Source of the DNA: Dryococelus australis | Lineage: Eukaryota > Arthropoda > Insecta > Phasmatodea > Phasmatidae | Assembly (NCBI GenBank): GCA_029891345.1 | Contig: CM056995.1 | Coordinates: 212,921,047 to 212,985,046 of the forward strand | Direction of reading: 5' to 3' | Length of the DNA stretch: 64,000 nt | In this document: positions 3,652-63,910 of the stretch, piece after piece | How the letters are laid out: each line of letters starts with the position of its first letter | How positions within the stretch are numbered: position 1 is the first letter of the stretch | Notes under the pieces: model-generated | What the model was told of the DNA's origin: nothing | The model's input: the letters and a program-made list of their open reading frames with translations, nothing else | The model's database searches: none | Translations under genes and position numbers: made by a program

Positions 3652-6060
3652 ATGGGTGACGTCGTTGCTGGTAGTTTTAAGGCTATCGCCTGAAAGTACG
3701 CCCAGTTCAAGACGCTGCTGAAGAAAGTGGTGGCGTGGGGAAGACGTGACACGTCGTCGGTGAGCGATGCGATGATATTCCTCGCGGAGGCTGCCGAGGG
3801 CATCGAGGAACTGCTCAAGTCGTCTCCGGTGTGTCCCAGTCTGGTCGGGGTGTGCTGCGCCCTGCGGTACATGCACGCCAAGCTGACTGCCGTACTCAGC
3901 AACGAGGACACCGCCGTCCACGCCCTCCGCCAGCTGCTCGAGTCAGTGAGGACATGCGCCAGCCAGCCAGCCATACATCGAGTACGTGGCGCTCAGCATC
4001 CTTCAACAACCTGGTCTTCCTGCTAATGAAGAAGGGTGACCTGGAGGCGTCGCGTGACATCCTGGAAGAAGACAACGACTTCTACGACAAGTTCAGGGAG
4101 CTCGCGGACTCTCCTAACACCGGGGATTACCTTCTACAGGAGTCCGACGTCATCCTACCAGGTGATGACACCGCCAAGATGCTGGAGAACCTGCAGACGA
4201 TTAACCTGGATATACTGGGCTTCGTGCTCAACAAACAGGGCGACCTGCGCGCCTTCTTGTACTACCACCACGTCTTGCTGTGCCAGGACCTGCAGGCAGG
4301 CGACCTCAATGGACCAGCGTGGGCCAGCAAGGTGGCGCGGCTCGTGTCGTACTTCCTCGATGAGGACGTCTTTAATAAGGCGCGGCGCCACCTGACAGCC
4401 ACCACCACCGTCCTCAACGGCTGCGAGGGGCGCTGCGATGCCGTAGAGGTGCTGGGGGCCACACCGACGTCTCCTGGGGTTGGATCAAGTACGCACTCGG
4501 GCTCTTCGGCGTGTCGAGGAGCAACGTGATGAAGAAGGTGTTCGACGACCAGTACTTACACAAGCTCTGGTAGTCGCTGTTCAACGAGGTTGCCCTAGCG
4601 GCGGCGCGGGCAAGTGGTATGTCGAAGAAACTGCCTCTGTGGACGAAGGTAGAAGCTGTAGCCAGGTGATCACGTAAGACATCCTAGAGGAAGTTTGGAG
4701 ACTGCAGGACTAAATGACAGTTGAAAAGAATGTTGAAGAATTGTCTGAGGATATAAGGAAAGTTTGCAAGATCGAGCCAAAAGCTCGAGGAGATGCTGAA
4801 GCCGAAATTACGAAGGAAGTAAATGGCAGAGAGAGAAACGAGCAGCAAAAGAAATCAGCCGACAAAGCAGCGCAGGGCGACGGCGACGACGTGAAGAAAG
4901 CAGCAGCAAGCGTGAAGGAAGAGGGCCTAGTGCAGCTGGCGTACGAATTCTTGTTCCGATTCTGGATACGGACTTCCTGGAGGACATGCTGCTGGCGACG
5001 TACATCGAGACAGCGCAGCAGACGTGCGAGCTCTTCTGGTTTGCAGAGGGGCACAGGCGGTATGCGAAGGGTCTACCTGGGCAGCCGCGAGACGCGATGC
5101 TGTGGCTATGCGTCCTGTACGACCACCTGGAGTTCTTCGAGCGCGGCATGGAGGAGCAAAAGCGCGGCAAAGAGGTGAAGGAGCGTAGCGTGCAGGAGCA
5201 GTAGCACGATGTGGAGGAGCAGGAGCACGGCATGGAGGAACAGGAGCGCAGCATGGAGGAGCAGGAGCGCTGCATTAAGGAGGCAGACCGGAGCATGGAG
5301 GAGCAGGAGCGCTGCATTAAGGAGGCAGACCGGAGCATGGAGGAGCAGGAGCGCTGCATTAAGGAGGCAGACCGGAGCATGGAGGAGCAAAAGCGCGGCA
5401 AAGAGGTGAAGGAGCGTAGCGTGCAGGAGCAGTAGCACGATGTGGAGGAGCAGGGGCGCTGCATTAAGGAGGCAGACCGGAGCATGGAGGAGCAGGAGCG
5501 CTGCATTAAGGAGGCAGACCGGAGCATGGAAGAGCAGGAGCGCTGCATTAAGGAGGCAGACCGGAGCATGGAGGAGCAGGAGCATGTTGTGGAGGAACAG
5601 GAGCGCAGCATGGAGGAGCAGGAGCGCTGCATTAAGGAGGCAGACCGGAGCATGGAGGAGCAGGAGCGCTGCATTAAGGAGGCAGACCGGAGCATGGAGG
5701 AGCAGGAGCATGTCGTGGAGGAGCAGGAGCGCTGCATGGAGGAGCTGGAGCATGACGTGGAGGAGCAGTATGTGCCACAGCGGGGGCTCGTCGAGGCGCT
5801 GAGGGCGTTGCAGTACGGGAGAGGCGGCACCGAGTATCTGAGCGAGCTGGTCAAGTCCGAGGTGAAGCTGGTACTGCTAAACATGCGACACATCTGCTGC
5901 GCCCCCTGGGATGGGCAGTGCGAGACAGTCGCGCTGCAGAATTTGCACGACCGTCTCGGCCAGCTCTCCTCCGGCCAACTCGTCGTCGACAACCTGTTGT
6001 CCTCCGGATTACGCCGCCACCTCTACTGCGAAATGCACCATGCTGAAGTATGTACAAAGC
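3652..6060 (+). pseudogene. KIFBP: KIF1-binding protein (KIFBP)-like, intronless broken copy
   Basis: KIFBP is a cytosolic TPR-like alpha-solenoid that binds kinesin motor domains and controls microtubule transport. Homology recognised from family knowledge runs in order. The first part is an N-terminal helical block (3652-3970). Next comes a TPR-like block with NNLVFLLMKKGDLEA, YYHHVLLCQDL and ARRHL (4000-4400). A WIKYALGLF segment follows (about 4480), then CELFWFAEGHRRYAKG and YDHLEFFERGMEEQ (5010-5160). After these come a 42-bp repeat expansion and a weakly similar tail to about 6050. The copy is broken: TGA at 3691, TAG at 4571, TAG at 5202 and 5433, and reading-frame changes near 3970, 4001, 4450 and 4940. 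No introns are visible over 2.4 kb, whereas vertebrate KIFBP is split by introns, so a retrocopy is likely; no poly-A tail was found. High GC relative to the flanks fits a coding origin. I am confident of the family and of the breaks, less so of the 3' limit. Confidence 0.75.
5149..5780 (+). repeat. 42-bp coding minisatellite inside the KIFBP-like copy
   Basis: Tandem 42-bp units (14 codons, reading SMEEQERCIKEAD-R) keep the frame throughout. The block also holds a larger direct duplication: the segment from 5149 recurs 231 bp later at 5380, each copy ending in the same QEQ-TAG-HDVEEQ context. Unit variants include MEEQEHVVEEQ. The encoded peptide is Glu-rich and would favour a coiled coil. 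The unit seems to have grown from the native FERGMEEQKR segment just before it. Confidence 0.85.
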
Positions 6061-6250
6061 AATTAATGCTTACTCAGATCATTTTCGTGCAAATTTAATT
6101 CGTAGCTTGTACAGATAATAGTAAAATTGATGTTTCCTTTTCGATAGTATTATTTTGAAATTTTCAGTACATAATCTTTTATATTCAGCAAAATAACAAT
6201 AACTCCACGCCACCCACCCTTCTTTCACTACACCCTTCATTCACATCTTC
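6061..6250. other. Short AT-rich spacer
   Basis: Follows the pseudogene. No poly-A signal or tail obvious. Confidence 0.4.
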
Positions 6251-13715: not shown

Positions 13716-15235
13716 TATTTAGGAAATAACTAAACACGTCATTTATGGGGATATTTTACAAAAATTCAATTCAAAAAGGCTGAAGAAACCGTGATTGGAC
13801 TATACTGTAATCAATCCGTACCAAACACGCATGTATGGCGTATTGCGTACGTATAAAGCACTGTATCACGGCAGTGAAATCTAGCAGAAAAATTGTGTGC
13901 GTTTTAAATGTAAACGGTGTGTCTTAGGCAGTTGCAACAAAGGGACCATTTTTGTTTCGTAGGTAATAGTGATCAATAAACCAGCATCACACGTTCATAA
14001 ACCCGACGGTAACGAAGTTTCCGACAATAAGAGGGTGGCCATCCCTGTTATTTTCGTAACGGGGAGTGTTATTATTGTGACTTTGCTCTGAGGTTGAAGA
14101 TCCCGATAACATAAAACAATGTTCAGCGAATTTTACTTTCATCTCGCCTGTTTTCTGATATTTTGCAAAAACACATTCCAAAATCTCAATTTCGGGGACT
14201 TATTACGCCCTTAAAATTTAGTTTAGGTACAAAGTGCCCTGTATATTAGCCACTTGATTTTACATAAGGAATCACCTCACGAAGTTTGTCAGTAGAATTC
14301 AGCCCCATCCTGTAGGGGCTATACGGGATATCCCACCTAACACAGCGACCTGAAATAATACCGAGACGGAATAAAATATGTCTAAACTATTTGCACGGGA
14401 TTGTTTCCAGGTAAGGGGCTCACAAAATTAAGAGAGGATAAACACACTCCTGTAAAGTATGAAAGTTCCACTTTCAACACAAAGTTATATTTATTTAAAT
14501 GGAACTTACTTAGTTTCCCTATCGCATTATAAACTAGGTGCACTATTATGAGTAACGGAAGTGGTTACAGGTTCCTAAATCCAATGCTTGTTGAGATATA
14601 ACCTATGTAAGTGTGGGTAGACTGCGTCACCACTGTGACACACATGAACACGTGACCTACAGTTACGACAGCCACCAAAATAACAGACGCGTGTCGTGAA
14701 CCATGAGCGACATATAAAGGACATTCGTAGCCCTGGTCGTGTCCACAATCAGACGTACCTACAGTCGTATTATATCGTTTGAAATCCTGAAATGCTAACA
14801 TAAATACCCATCTGTGTGCACGTTGTATCGACGGTATTGTACAGCAAACTGATGTACTAATACGTACATAACAGAAAACACATCGTACTGTACCGTTTAC
14901 AATATTGTTTCCACGTCAGGGGCTCCTCGCATATTGAGAGGATCACCTCACTCCAATAACTACCCACGTACCCCTTTCAACACAACTCGGTATGTTCTTA
15001 ATGTAACCAGCATGTTTTACTTGCCCTATGAGAAACGAAGCGCAAGTTTACGGATAACAGAATTGGTTGCACATTTCTATCTACAGTACGTTGGAGATAG
15101 GAATGGAGGTAGTGGGGATACAGTCTGTGACGTGTGAATCAGCTTTCCAGATACACAGTTCAGTGCAGTGCTCAAGGTTGTTGGTTGTTCCTGCGTAGTC
15201 TAATATATGTGCTAGTACAATACGGCTAACAGTTA

Positions 15236-15875
15236 TCAGGTGCAATGACGAAGAAAAACTGGACATGCTCTTGCTGTACGGTGGGTGTCAGATAAACGCA
15301 GTACGAACGGTGGAAATGTACACGGAACGATACCTTGATCGACAGCGACCATCACCTCGTACAATCGCCAACATATGCAGTTATCTATTAGCAACGGGAA
15401 GCTGGAACATGCAAATATGTAAACGTACAACCACTGTAACTAATGAAGGACACTAAGTCGGTGTTCTGGCCGCTGTAGTGCACAACACACATGTGAGTAC
15501 ATAGCGGATAGCACGTGGTGCGGGAATAAGTCGCGCCAGCACGAGCCGCATTCCACGTCGTCATACATTCCATCCATACCACTTGTCACTGCATCAAGAG
15601 TTGCATGGGCGGGATTTTGACCACAGAGTTGCATTCAGTCTCGCTTTGCACTTCAGCAGCTGCAGGACAATAATTCATTCCAGGGGACTAGTTTGTTTAC
15701 GAATGGAGCAACGTTCACGAATCATGGACTTGTGAATTTGCGGAATATGCACTACTGGAGCGTCGAAAACCCACGCTGTCTGCGTCCGATTGACCATCAA
15801 CGACAGCGGCGTGTGAACGTTTGTTGTGGGATCATGGACTATCGTATCACAGGCCCGTATTTTGTTTCCGGGAAC
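15236..15875 (+). pseudogene. Mariner-like transposase, N-terminal half
   Basis: The product would bind the element ends and cut DNA with a DDE/D RNase-H-like core. The plus strand encodes a DUF4817-type helix-turn-helix head (MLLLYGGCQINAVRTVEMYT, 15265 onward). After in-frame stops TAA (15456) and TAG (about 15501) comes the second DNA-binding helix (RIARGAGISRASTSRI), then HPYHLSLHQELHGRDF, and the first catalytic strand region, LFTNGATFTNHGLVNLRN (about 15690-15740). In active relatives the third to fourth residues of that motif are Asp-Glu; here they read Asn-Gly, so the first catalytic Asp is lost. The frame runs to GPYFVSGN, exactly where the foldback insertion begins. Confidence 0.75.
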
Positions 15876-16678
15876 GGTTGAAGTAAAGCAACTGCCTCTG
15901 GAGCACTGCACCCGACTATACAACGTGAAGAACTCATAATAAAATAGTACAGACATCATAAATATTGTCATAAAAGTGTGATTTATGCTGTATATGAAAG
16001 AAGAATGTATATATTTTGCAACATTATAAAATATTTTACTACAATATACCTACTTTTTAAATGTATTAATTTAATAGTCTATTAAAATAGTCTGTATTTG
16101 TAACCAAATTTAAGCGCATTTCCATTCCGGATGCTTCAAAAAGCAGAACTTGTAAGAAAATCTTCCTCATGGAATATCGTCATAATGTTTACTATTATTG
16201 TGTGTAAGAAAATAGTAATAGTAATGTAGGAAATAATTTTTATAATTATTTTTACGTGCGTCCATTTGTCACCAACATTTATGGCTGAAACTGGCGTAAA
16301 TATGGTTAGTTATAAAATTGATATGGTACATTATTTCTATGATTTTACTGCACATGACCACACAGTAAATACTATGACGATCATTCTTGATTTTCTTGCC
16401 AATTCTGCTATCCGAAGCATCCAGAATGGAAATGCGCTTAAATTTTGTTACAAATACAGACTATTTTAATAGACTATTAAATTAATACATTTAAAAAGTA
16501 GGTATATTGTAGTAAAATATTTTATAATGTTGCAAAATATATACATTCTTCTTTCATATACAGTATAAATAACACTTGTGTGACAATTTTTATGGTTCTG
16601 TACGTAGTACTTTTTTATTATTTCTTCACATTTTGTAGTCGAGTACAGTGCTCCATAGGCAGTTGCTTTACTTCAACC
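15876..16678. mobile_element. 803-bp foldback element inside the transposase
   Basis: A near-perfect palindrome. The ends are GGTTGAAGTAAAGCAACTGCC and its reverse complement, with arms of about 330 bp (15876-16205 and 16358-16678) and a loop of about 150 bp. It has no coding capacity. It splits a transposase reading frame: GPYFVSGN lies immediately before it and TLNRAHYASFL immediately after, so it is a clean insertion rather than part of the host element. Confidence 0.8.
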
Positions 16679-17092
16679 TTAAACAGAGCACACTACGCGT
16701 CGTTTCTCCGCTACAGTCTACCAGGTCTGCTCGAGTACGCGGGATTGGACACTCGTCTCTCAATGTGGTTTCAGCACGATGGTTGCCCCGCCCACTCTGC
16801 ACGTGTGAGAAGAGAGGTATGAACGTCAAATCAGTGGATGTGGCGTGGTGGTCGTGTGGCATTGCCAGCTCGCTCCCTCGACCTAACGCCCTTCGATTTC
16901 TTTCTTTAGGGCGCATTGAAAAACCGAGTGTATCATGCAGCCCCAACAACCATGGAAGATATGTAGCAGCATGTTTCCGCGACGTGTCGCGCACTGTCTG
17001 GGGAACCACTGCAGTCTGTGAAACGGTCTCTTGTTGAACATCTCCACGTTCATAAAGGTAAAAGGCGGTCATTTCGGACATCTAATTAAGTG
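16679..17092 (+). pseudogene. Mariner-like transposase, C-terminal half
   Basis: Continues the frame broken by the foldback element. Visible blocks are SLPGLLEYAGLDTRLSMW, then WFQHDGCPAHSAR, which carries the second catalytic Asp, then RSLDLTPFDFFL, which carries the third, then GALKNRVYHA and SVKRSLVEHLHVHKG. In-frame stops TGA at 16820 and TAG after FDFFL and after MEDM show decay. Spacing and motifs match Tc1/mariner-superfamily transposases common in insects. Confidence 0.75.
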
Positions 17093-17978
17093 AAACACCG
17101 GAGTTCCGGTAGTCATCCCTTTGGAACGGACAACATATGATTGTTTGTGCCAAGGGTAGGCCTACATGCTTCGAAGATTGAATTAGGTGAGGAATGATCG
17201 GTACAATACGAAGTGTATTACGTTATATACATAAGTACGTATTAGTCAATCCGTTTTATGTACAGTACCGTCGATAAAATGTACGCGAACACGTGTGTTT
17301 GTGTTAGCATTTCAGTGTTCCACCCGATATAATACGACTGTAGGTACATCTGATTGTGGACACGACCAGAACTACGGATATTCTTTATATGTCGCTCATG
17401 GTTCACGACAGGGGTCTGTTACTTTGGTGGCTGTCGTACCTGTAGGTCACGTGTTCATGTGTGTCACAGTGGTGACGCAGTCTACCCACACTTACATAGG
17501 TTATATCTCAACAAGCATTGGATTTATGAACCTGCAACCAATTCCGTTATTTATAATTGTGCACCTAGTTTATAATGAGATAGGGAAACTACGTACGTTC
17601 CATTTAAATAAATAAAACTTTGAGTTCAAAGGGGTTTTTTCATACTTTACAGGAGTGGGTTCATCCTCTCAATTAATGAGCCTCTTATATGAAAACAATC
17701 CTGTACAAAGATTTTGGTAATATTTTGTTCTGTCTCCGTATTATTTCAGGTCGCAGTGTTAGGTGAGGCACTCTGCATATACAGCATGTTCCGAAACTAA
17801 TCGCCCAAACTACAGGAGGTGATGCCTTATGATAAATAAATTCGAAAATATACAGGACGTCGTATACCTAAACGGTATATTAAAGAAGATGTGAGACTAT
17901 GAAAATCTGGTTTTGAAAATGTATTTTGGCCGAATGTCTTATACAACGTCTACAAAGTCCGCAGCAGAAAGGTGACTT

Positions 17979-29226: not shown

Positions 29227-30755
29227 TCACGGTTGTCTTAAATTCGTATCAAACTTCCTCCCCAGAATGAATCCTACTGTTGCACTTGTAACTCTAACAC
29301 GTGCAGCACACCCACATTTTCGGCGATGATAGAAAGCACCTTCTGTGCGGACGATGGCGTGTTCAGATGTACCTACATCAAGGGCCAGCAAAACTACATC
29401 AAGGGCCAGCAAAACAGCATCAATATGGCAGGTCATTACAAGTCTCTTGTTGTACCGCCTTACCAAAACGTCCCATGCGGTCTCGTAATTAGTGTCAATC
29501 AATATTAATGACTGAATAAGCGAGGCTGATTCGTCGTCCAATGACGACTTGAGGTAAAGGAGCATTTAATAACCGTCAAGTGTTTACAGTCTACAACTAA
29601 AACAGTAAACAAATTTGAAAAGTTCATCCAATCTCTAGGATGGCCTGAAAAGTTTGGTAACTGTATTGGTGGTAAAACCACTCTACTTGCTTGTCCTTGA
29701 CTACTAGCTGGCGCGCCGGTGTCCTGTACTTGCTTGTCCTTGACTACTAGCTGGCACGCCGGTGTCCTGTACTTGCATGTCCTTGACTACTAGCTGGCGC
29801 GCCGGTGTCCTGTACTTGCTTGTCCTTGACTACTAGCTGGCGCGCCGGTGTCCTGTACTTGCTTGTCCTTGACTACTAGCTGGCGCGCCGGTGTCCTGTA
29901 CTTACATGTCCTTGACTACTAGCTGGCGCGCCGGTGTCCTGTACTTGCATGTCCTTGACTACTAGCTGGCGCGCCGGTGTCCTGTACTTGCATGTCCTTG
30001 ACTACTAGCTGGCGCGCCGGTGTCCTGTACTTGCATGTCCTTGACTACTAGCTGGCGCGCCGGTGTCCTGTACTTGCATGTCCTTGACTACTAGCTGGCG
30101 CGCCGTTGTCCTGTACTTGCAAGTCCTTGACTACTAGCTGGCGCGCCGGTGTCCTGTACTTGCATGTCCTTGACTACTAGCTGGCGCGCCGGTGTCCTGT
30201 ACTTGCATGTCCTTGACTACTAGCTGGCGCGCCGGTGTCCTGTACTTGCATGTCCTTGACTACTAGCTGGCGCGCCGGTTTCCTGTACTTGCATGTCCTT
30301 GACTACTAGCTGGAGCGCCGGTGTCCTGTACTTGCATGTCCTTGACTACTAGCTGGCGCGCCAGTGTCCTGTACTTGCTTGTCCTTGACTACTAGCTGGC
30401 GCGCCGGTGTCCTGTACTTGCATGTCCTTGACTACTAGCTGGCGCGCCGGTGTCCTGTACAATACCTCGGCAATGTATTGCGCGCCGCTATCATCTCGAA
30501 ATATATGTCGTCAAATTTATCAAGACGTAGTGTGTGAACTTCTGCGTCAAACTCTTTGACAATTTCTTATAACAGTTGCCAATGCAGATGATCTTCGTCA
30601 AATCCATCTTTCACTGCAGCGAGATGACTTCACATTGAAAGAAACAAATCTAACTTGGCGGTATTTGTCTTGACTTCCAGGGCTAATTTTTACGCCCTGT
30701 TCAGTCTGTTCTCCGCCTTCTCTAGCCCGAAGCGAACTGGGGTTTTTTTATCCAT
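29227..30755 (-). pseudogene. BEL/Pao retrotransposon gag remnant (DUF1759 type)
   Basis: Gag of BEL/Pao retroelements forms the intracellular particle. On the minus strand an ATG at 30755 opens a degraded N-terminal region with stops. It contains EFDAEVHTLRLDKFDD then IYFEMIAARNTLP (about 30560-30470), typical of the helical gag start. A minisatellite follows, then QLPNFSGHPRDWMNFSNLF (about 29665-29610), LLYLKSSLDDESASLIQSL and TNYETAWDVLVRRYNK (29565-29450), the DUF1759 signature. Frame changes near 29570 and in-frame stops mark it as dead. No protease, polymerase or LTR was found next to it. Confidence 0.75.
29684..30460. repeat. 43-bp minisatellite, 18 copies, inside the gag remnant
   Basis: About 18 nearly identical 43-bp units. 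Each contains CTTGACTACTAGCTGG directly followed by the palindrome GGCGCGCC in most copies, then GGTGTCCTGTACTTGC. Variants sit mainly at one T/A position (CTTGCTTGTCC versus CTTGCATGTCC). Read on the minus strand, the unit nearest the gag core gives APASSQGQAS, which runs straight into the gag linker before QLPNFSG, so the array grew from gag coding sequence. Confidence 0.9.
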
Positions 30756-58353: not shown

Positions 58354-59212
58354 TTATTTGCTAGTTGGAAAGTACCCACTAGTTCTCAACTCTAGAGCAT
58401 TTACCGAAGCCAGAGTCCAACCCGAACCCTTGGCCACCATTTCTTCTTCCTCATGACATATCTTGAGTAAACTATCAACAATCGCATCTTCAGCTGCAAA
58501 TGAATAACACACAGCTATAACCGAAGTATTGAAGGTTTTGGTACAATATTCATCATCGCCAAATATTATATTTAACAGCACCATGTTATTCTACCTCATC
58601 GGTAAGTTGGTTAATTTTATTAGGGATCATACTTGTCAGGAAAGAGCAAACATTGTGTGATATAAATGACATATTCGGTGCAACCAATTCTTTAAAAAGT
58701 CCCCTGAATCCAGATCGCTTCAGGAAAAAATCATTCACATTAAATTTCGAAGATGGTGTATAAGCTTGAGGTTGTTTATCAGTGGTCTTTCCTTTACAAA
58801 GTTTCAAATGTATATTTAAATCAACATCATGCACATACCTTCTTCGACACTTATTAGAACGATGTGCCATACGAATGGTGTTCCTCACACACATAGTTTC
58901 GTGTCTCCTAGCTCCATATGTGCATGTAAAAGTCTTGTCGCAATAGTTGCAAGGATGTCTTAGTGGGAGCGAAGAACTGCTCTCAGCATTTGTAGATGAA
59001 CCTGCACGTTTATTTGGTCTGGCAGGGAGACCCTTACATGTTGCGCAATGTCTTCTCAAGTTGCCATATCGGGCAAACTGCGATTTACACTGTTCACATG
59101 CGAGCACTATATGCTCTGGATTCTGATGAAAACCAGTTTCATGTTGTCTGCAGCTGGTTATTGTAAAAAAGGTCTTCTTACAGTAGCATCACAAATAACT
59201 TTTCTGTTCCAT
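58354..59212 (-). pseudogene. C2HC zinc-finger protein with GSGW module (polymerase-associated type)
   Basis: Minus strand. An ATG at 59212 (MEQKSYL) is followed by TGA at 59189-59191, within the first finger. Open sequence then gives CEQCKSQFARYGNLRRHCAT, CNYCDKTFTCTYGARRHETM and CRRRYVHDVDLNIHLKLC, all ending in Cys (C2HC). A linker follows (KFNVNDFFLKRSGFRGLFKE), stopping at 58586. In a shifted frame (58584-58354) come TFNTSVIAV, HEEEEMVAKGSGWTLASVNA and ELRTSGYFPTSK, then stop. Fingers, a TFNT segment and a GSGW segment in this order recall the N-terminal part of large arthropod proteins that end in a viral/Polinton-like B-family DNA polymerase. That assignment is from memory and no polymerase motif follows. 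Broken by a stop and a frameshift. Confidence 0.5.
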
Positions 59213-59306
59213 CATCCAATAAGAGCACATTATCCACAGAAGATGTTCTCTCTTCGAGATCTGAACAGCAAATGAGCTGGCTAGCCTAACACGAGTACTG
59301 TTAGTT

Positions 59307-59776
59307 TTAGCTTGATTGTAACTTACAAAGTTTGAAATGTGTTTTTAAAGCATCAACATGTGCATATATTATTCGACATTTATCACATCTATATGTCACA
59401 TGAATGGTGCTCGTCACACATGCACTTTGTATAGGCCTCTTTGCATTGTACGCATATTTAAAAGTCCTGTTACAATAGTTGCATGGATGTCGTGGCAGGA
59501 CCAAAGAACTGCTCTCAACGTTTGTAGATGAACACTTACATTTAGCTGGTAATATCTTCAGATACCGCTGACGAGTAGTTCAGGGTGAACCTTACATGTC
59601 ACAAGATGTCTTTTCATGTCGCTACAGCGACCAAATTGAGATTTACACTTTTCACATGCGAACATAACCCGACCTGCATTCTGATAACAACCAGCTGCAT
59701 GCTGTCTGTAGATGTTTTTGTAAGAAAATGCCTTCTTACAGTAGCGACACGAGTAACTTTCCTGCATATTTTCCAT
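59307..59776 (-). pseudogene. C2HC zinc-finger paralogue
   Basis: Minus-strand ATG at 59776 in a good context (CATCGATGG): MENMQESYSCRYCKKAFSYK, then CEKCKSQFGRCSDMKRHLVT-C, with a stop at 59558. After a frame change near 59560-59590 the fingers continue as CNYCNRTFKYAYNA (final His lost, reads RPIQSAC) and CDKCRIIYAHVDALKTHFKL-C, then stop at 59307. At the end TTTGTAAGTTAC could act as a splice donor in place of the paralogue's continued frame. Its 5' leader (CGTTCTCTTAGTC region) matches that of the neighbouring copy. The GSGW module is missing. Confidence 0.5.
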
Positions 59777-62921: not shown

Positions 62922-63910
62922 ATATGCTTATAAGTAAACTATGGTAAACATGACCCTGCGACACTTCTCGTCGTCATGGATGATGAATATGTTATGAATC
63001 TGATAACTATATCTTAAGTGGTTTGGAACATACAGCCAACTGTGCTTATAAGTAGACATGACATACTTGGTTCTGCAAACCCCACTCATCATTGGAGGTG
63101 ATGCCTATGTTATAAATTAGACAACTATATCTTATATTGTTCGGAACTTACGGCCAACTATACTTATAAGTAGACACACATATGGTATACATGGTCCTGC
63201 GACCCTCTCGTTGTTATGGGTCATGTCTATGTTATGAATTTGCATCTATATATTATATAGATCGGAACTTACAGCCAACTATATTAATAAGTCGACATTT
63301 GGTATACTTGGTCCTGCGACCCCTCTCGTCATCGGGGATGATGCCAATGTCATCCATTTCACAACAATATCTTATGTAGTTCGGAAATTACAAGCCAACT
63401 ATCTTTATAATTTAACATGGGGTCAACTTGGTCTAACAGCACCTCTCATCATTGGGGGTGATACCTTCGATACGAATTTTTGGTAGTTATATCTCATATG
63501 GTTCGGACATTATAGTAAACTATGCTCATAAGGGTGCTTAGGTGAATTTTAACCCTTTGGTACTTTTCCTTGGTCAGAGTAATACCTATGTTACGATTTT
63601 GGTAGTTGTATCTCATATGGTTTCGAAGTTACAGGCGACTATTTTTATAAGCATGCATAGGTCCATTTTGAACCTTTGGTCCTTTTCCTTGTCTGAGGTG
63701 ATGCCTATGTTATGTATTTGGTGGTTATATGTCAAATGGTTCAGAAATTACAGCCAACTATGCATATAAGTCGACTAGGTCATATTAGTCCCTGCATCCA
63801 TTCTCGTTCTCTAGGGTTATACATAAATTAGAAATTATTTAGTTCTATAGCAAACTGTTCTATAGTTACAGCCAACTATGCTTATATGTAAGCATGGGTG
63901 TCATACTTGA
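62922..63910 (+). repeat. 120-bp tandem array, about eight copies
   Basis: The phrase ACAGCCAACTATGCTTATAAG recurs near 63033, 63151, 63272, 63392, 63513, 63632, 63752 and 63869, a period of 117-121 bp. Each unit also has TGGTCCTGCGACCCCTCTCG-like, GATGCCTATGTTA and TATATCTTATATGGTTCGGA parts. Divergence increases to the right. No long ORF is conserved between units. Confidence 0.9.

Follow-up and report, generated by a model that had tools for sequence, protein, structure and literature searches.

We analyzed a 64,000-nucleotide stretch of the Dryococelus australis genome (contig CM056995.1, positions 212,921,047 to 212,985,046), hereafter the window, which carries a row of C2HC-finger units that are probably the remains of a mobile element of the Maverick/Polinton type. 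C2HC fingers, an FRG stretch, a GSGW stretch and then a stop codon follow one another on the minus strand at 59782-58357. This order confirms an earlier note, made from the letters of the window alone, which had described repeated C2HC fingers, then FNTSVIAV and EEMVAKGSGWTLASVNALEL, and then a stop. Both of these sequences lie in the GSGW frame (58590-58357, minus strand), which terminates at the stop and would be the C-terminal part of a truncated polymerase N-terminal module. The preceding unit, B, has a finger region with four finger-like units, two of them strict C2HC fingers (59188-58790, minus strand), and its frame, 59188-58589, runs on into the FRG stretch (58789-58589). The finger frame and the GSGW frame abut in different frames, and the window copy is thus broken. 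Unit A (59782-59313, minus strand) duplicates the fingers of B (70% DNA identity, E = 3e-61) but has neither the FRG nor the GSGW stretch, and is split over two frames, 59782-59561 and 59579-59313. Unit C (58325-58011, minus strand) has one finger in an open frame, and of 12 copies of the locus elsewhere in the genome, 11 conserve the region at 57.9-58.2 kb. Unit D (56592-56167, minus strand) is a finger gene of a second, related family with an intact frame, and unit E (57493-57062, minus strand) is its broken tandem copy (77% identity over 775 nt, E = 4e-174). The disrupted frames of units A, B and E bear out the remark of the earlier note that the copies are broken and decaying.

The strict C2HC pattern has 11 matches in the window's open frames of at least 25 amino acids, all on the minus strand between 59.8 and 56.2 kb (three in A, two in B, one in C, three in D and two in E); the remaining finger-like units are degenerate. 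A loose GSGW pattern at the DNA level matches the window once, compared with none of 100 shuffles. When window pieces were scanned with Pfam, every finger match fell under the curated cut-off and the GSGW frame had no match. A sequence search of the PDB linked the fingers to finger proteins and the GSGW frame to one weak allergen match. For the GSGW frame, single-sequence AlphaFold gave a poor model (mean pLDDT 44), on which we do not rely. Scans of viral contigs with both window frames as queries gave no confirmed relative, and tRNA and Rfam scans of the window gave no match.

In the source genome (3.4 Gb in 646 contigs), 91 of 6,287 candidates for the Pfam family DNA_pol_B_2 were scored, which gave at least 54 matches (control, 0 of 14 genomes). 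FRG and GSGW stretches stand directly before the polymerase in three of these loci, the latter as GSGW in L035, as GGGW in L040 and, after a stop, as GNGW in L044. Fingers of the window type are found in the stretches upstream of L044, L035 and L040 (L045, L046 and L047). The window GSGW frame matches L040 with 37.5% identity over 64 amino acids (53.5 bits, E = 9e-13), whereas the best of 200 shuffled queries reached 23.9 bits. The window FRG stretch matches L044 (E = 7.5e-9), the window fingers match L046 (E = 1e-7), and unit D shares 74% identity over 324 nt with L048, upstream of the polymerase locus L038. A copy of the module elsewhere, L019, is open over 324 amino acids and matches L040 with 38% identity over 138 amino acids (102 bits, E = 1e-30), which settles the relationship. 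Judged from sequence similarity, the module is homologous to the N-terminus of the finger-bearing DNA polymerases of this genome, and the likeness to large arthropod finger proteins with a C-terminal family-B polymerase, to which the earlier note had pointed, is now backed by the L040 matches of both the window frame and the L019 copy. The polymerase-type motif GSGWTLTAVNG occurs five times in the genome (control, 0), and three of the five sites have a polymerase match within 6 kb among the matches listed. A second group of polymerases (L033, L034, L036 and L039) shows 77-82% mutual identity over about 2 kb or more; that comparison gave no DNA-level match between these loci and the L035 group.

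We compared the stop among high-scoring copies, a non-random sample of 25 rows; one copy accounts for two of the rows, so that 24 distinct copies remain. In 18 of the 24, the stop is at one and the same codon after the GSGW stretch (TAG in 17, TAA in the window); the other six have CAG (one copy) or TAT (three copies) at this codon, or an alignment that ended earlier (two copies). The absence of the polymerase is therefore a trait of the family rather than damage to the window copy. None of the 150 best GSGW matches has any of the 54 polymerase matches closer than 300 kb, among the matches listed. Of the 12 copies that were read over 10 kb, a polymerase piece beyond the GSGW stretch is present in L013 alone, as a C-terminus on the same strand and downstream (E = 2e-42 to L038). 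A polymerase C-terminus lies within 20 kb of three of 148 finger-unit places when these are compared with 150 C-terminus matches, among the matches listed: two follow on the same strand, 3,385 and 3,283 bases downstream, and the third is 6.7 kb upstream. The 3,283-base case is L061, where a further C-terminus copy lies on the opposite strand; the two L061 copies (149-475 and 1399-1052) are about 0.6 kb apart in opposite orientation. L061 and L013 are colinear over 4.4 kb at 80% identity and so have one deletion in common. No polymerase core was found in the copies read, where C-terminal remnants are confined to L013 and L061 and a short polymerase trace to L028 (E = 1e-6); this would be expected of a non-autonomous derivative, and we accordingly label the element Maverick-derived rather than an intact Maverick. 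The earlier proposal that the polymerase had been lost is supported.

The units of the window are widely dispersed. The finger frame 58589-59188 has at least 151 genome matches, which, the frame itself excluded, are 53-74% identical to it (a lower bound, as 150 of 14,687 candidates were scored), and by eye 21 of the roughly 150 matches listed are without an internal stop. The GSGW frame has at least 150 matches, all with E < 5e-19 (the best 150 of 6,211 candidates, again a lower bound). The intact motif GSGWTLASVNA is present 62 times in the genome (control, 0), and 32 of these sites are among the 150 GSGW matches; capture-recapture from the two sets gives about 290 GSGW copies, a biased figure because the 150 are the best scorers. 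Window positions of approximately 58.3-59.3 kb are matched by all 12 copies, and the match extends to 54.5 kb in six of them and past 61 kb on the other side in about seven. Unit A accompanies unit B in 11 of the 12 copies, in one of them partially, the exception being L011. D-type units have at least 150 matches (the best 150 of 15,490 candidates); among the matches listed, seven same-strand pairs are found elsewhere with a spacing of 865-920 bp, and four D places are within 8 kb of a GSGW match. The duplications are older than the spread of the element. The earlier note had supposed that the N-terminal module was duplicated locally, which we reject, since both the A/B pair and pairs resembling D/E are found again in copies scattered across the genome.

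The ends of some of the dispersed copies could also be delimited. The element has inverted repeats of more than 1.2 kb, and its best-preserved copies measure about 11.7 kb. A subterminal tandem array with a period of about 118 bp (62923-63898, plus strand, in the window) lies inside the right inverted repeat and is present in 9 of 12 copies. It has the window orientation on the right in seven copies and the opposite orientation on the left in four, with arrays on both sides in two copies and the reversed arrangement in none. The left and right ends are homologous once inverted (e.g., the right end of L011 and the left end of L019, 77% identity over 1.4 kb). Five copies yielded a total of seven ends, of which six start with AGTAGT and one with AGAGGT. 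One measured element is 11,696 bp long and is flanked by CACAGA on both sides, and its two inverted repeats share 77% identity over 1.3 kb; the second is 11,673 bp long, and its flanks agree at four of six bases. A perfect 6-bp target duplication (CACAGA) is therefore present in one of the two elements that could be checked. As vertebrate Mavericks are reported to have (AGT)2//(ACT)2 ends and 6-bp target duplications (PMC8097293), the element is of the Maverick/Polinton type by its ends. When a 300-base end was used as query (40 scored of 1,045 candidates), 10 of the 40 scored ends, two of them from the query's own element, had a finger or GSGW match within 12 kb on the inside and none had one only on the outside, with 0.05 expected, among the matches listed. 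The window copy itself has a decayed but recognizable right end beyond the window, at 64483-64252 (E = 7e-5).

We have considered whether the units could instead be a cluster of host finger genes, or an element gene that the host has domesticated, for example for silencing. The finger units do stand in a row, and the frame of unit D is intact; yet this arrangement recurs at scattered sites, together with inverted-repeat ends, on which ground a host gene cluster was rejected. Domestication, which the earlier note had offered with silencing of related elements as an example, finds no support either, as units A, B and E are broken and nothing sets the window copy apart from the others. Either form of host function is very improbable. 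The mobile or virus-like origin proposed earlier is supported by the dispersed copies, the long inverted repeats, the AGTAGT ends and the 6-bp target duplication.

Taken together, we consider it likely, with good confidence, that a single old copy of a high-copy, non-autonomous Maverick/Polinton element, now decaying, lies in the window, and that this element encodes only the N-terminal module of the polymerase. An ancestral Maverick with a finger-FRG-GSGW-polymerase gene would have lost the polymerase part through a stop and a deletion, while the ends of the derivative would still have acted as replication origin and integration substrate. With such ends, it could have multiplied on the polymerase and integrase of other elements. 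The repeated ends would permit protein-primed replication with jumping back, as a passage of PMC8097293 proposes for Mavericks; lacking a polymerase core, the derivative would have to borrow the polymerase, and an integrase from other elements would insert the copy. After multiplying, the family would have drifted. Several observations weigh against this interpretation. Among the matches listed, 30 of the 40 scored ends lack a finger or GSGW match on the inside, and two paired ends at a distance of 9.2 kb enclose neither. The left end of the window copy was searched for and not found, ends were located in 5 of the 13 copies examined (the window included), and end-to-end lengths come from two elements only. 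The end profile had no convincing match in the flanks of the polymerase loci, which were covered in part, and no end common to this element and a polymerase-bearing one was seen there. Integrase, ATPase, protease and capsid genes were not named by Pfam in the few open frames near the polymerases, where no search aimed at them was made.

We then asked what the truncated protein might have done. The pooled ratio of nonsynonymous to synonymous substitution rates (dN/dS) is 0.50 for the fingers and the GSGW stretch and 0.69 for the FRG stretch. In another alignment, the true frames range from 0.40 to 0.80 and the wrong frames and flanks from 0.58 to 1.09. Strong purifying selection is not borne out. 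An excess of third-position changes is significant in the fingers of A1 only. Coding constraint is weak, and the truncated protein was most likely a passenger. By analogy with P elements, it might instead, while still translated, have been a repressor whose fingers bound element DNA and which acted as a competitor of the full polymerase protein. Such a role would fit the common stop, the retention of the finger half, the intact frames in some copies (e.g., L019) and the third-position excess in the A1 fingers, and the 66-kDa and KP proteins, truncated P-element proteins that retain the DNA-binding domain, are reported to repress P elements (PMC7776569). The weak constraint among the copies argues against it, with the pooled ratios set against those of wrong frames and flanks and a third-position excess that is significant for A1 alone. 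We regard a repressor of this kind as rather unlikely.

The module might also, by analogy, be a stand-alone terminal protein, that is, the primer domain, which in Polintons would be fused to the polymerase; the element would then supply origin and primer and borrow the polymerase. Krupovic and Koonin proposed that the N-terminal domain of the PolB of Polintons and bidnaviruses is the terminal protein, and they mention an earlier suggestion that a 53-kDa virion component is a C-terminally truncated bidnavirus PolB (PMC4061559). It is consistent with this idea that a truncated N-terminal module has been retained in an element that retains its ends; the weak coding constraint argues against it. 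We find a primer function for the module doubtful. Equally doubtful is the broader scenario in which a Maverick family split its fused gene and kept the origin ends together with a stand-alone, terminal-protein-like module with a fixed stop, borrowing polymerase and integrase. If it were true, the origin and the primer, and not the polymerase, would be what an element itself must supply.

Several other features of the window were also recorded. A tandem array of 18 copies of a 43-bp unit (97% matching) is located at 29684-30460. A minus-strand frame (29230-29565) matches Pfam DUF1759, a retrotransposon-related family, above the cut-off (E = 1.7e-8). A large inverted repeat occupies 14221-17873, with arms at 14221-14895 and 17873-17199 that are 82% identical, and encloses a further self-inverted stretch at 15876-16678. 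Open frames at 3750-6098 show a weak match to the C-terminus of KIF-1 binding protein (E = 9e-4, below the cut-off) and are followed by a tandem-repeat stretch coding for MEEQER-like repeats.

A phrase search of an open-licence library for non-autonomous or defective Polintons or Mavericks found no paper. Adintoviruses, a Polinton-like consortium, include some members with zinc-finger regulator genes (PMC11071296); their PolB has an OTU-like N-terminal domain, whereas the loci here carry finger-FRG-GSGW before the polymerase. The OTU domain was not named in a Pfam scan of L035 262-1320, and no dedicated search for it was made. Internally deleted P elements, which are reported to outcompete full ones (PMC12393704), offer a possible parallel, since here too a deletion derivative would encode a truncated protein that retains the N-terminal DNA-binding part; the transposase, ends and mechanism of P elements are unrelated to those of the element here. 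In bidnaviruses and Polintons, the part comparable by analogy is the N-terminal part of a protein-primed family-B polymerase, which here would be a separate product. The closest likeness is to Mavericks/Polintons themselves, with which the element shares long inverted repeats, AGTAGT ends and a 6-bp target duplication, and its module is homologous to the N-terminus of this genome's family-B polymerases. It differs in its length of 11.7 kb, compared with about 17 kb for intact vertebrate Mavericks as given in PMC8097293, and in having no polymerase core in the copies read. Vertebrate Mavericks are mostly of low copy number, and the hundreds of defective copies that a few genomes contain have been described as perplexing (PMC8097293). 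In the present genome, a large amplification can be assigned to a defined element that lacks the polymerase and has ends, a target duplication and a truncated gene with a common stop. With this family it can be tested which parts a Maverick itself has to bring along, and whether the N-terminus of the polymerase serves as the protein primer.
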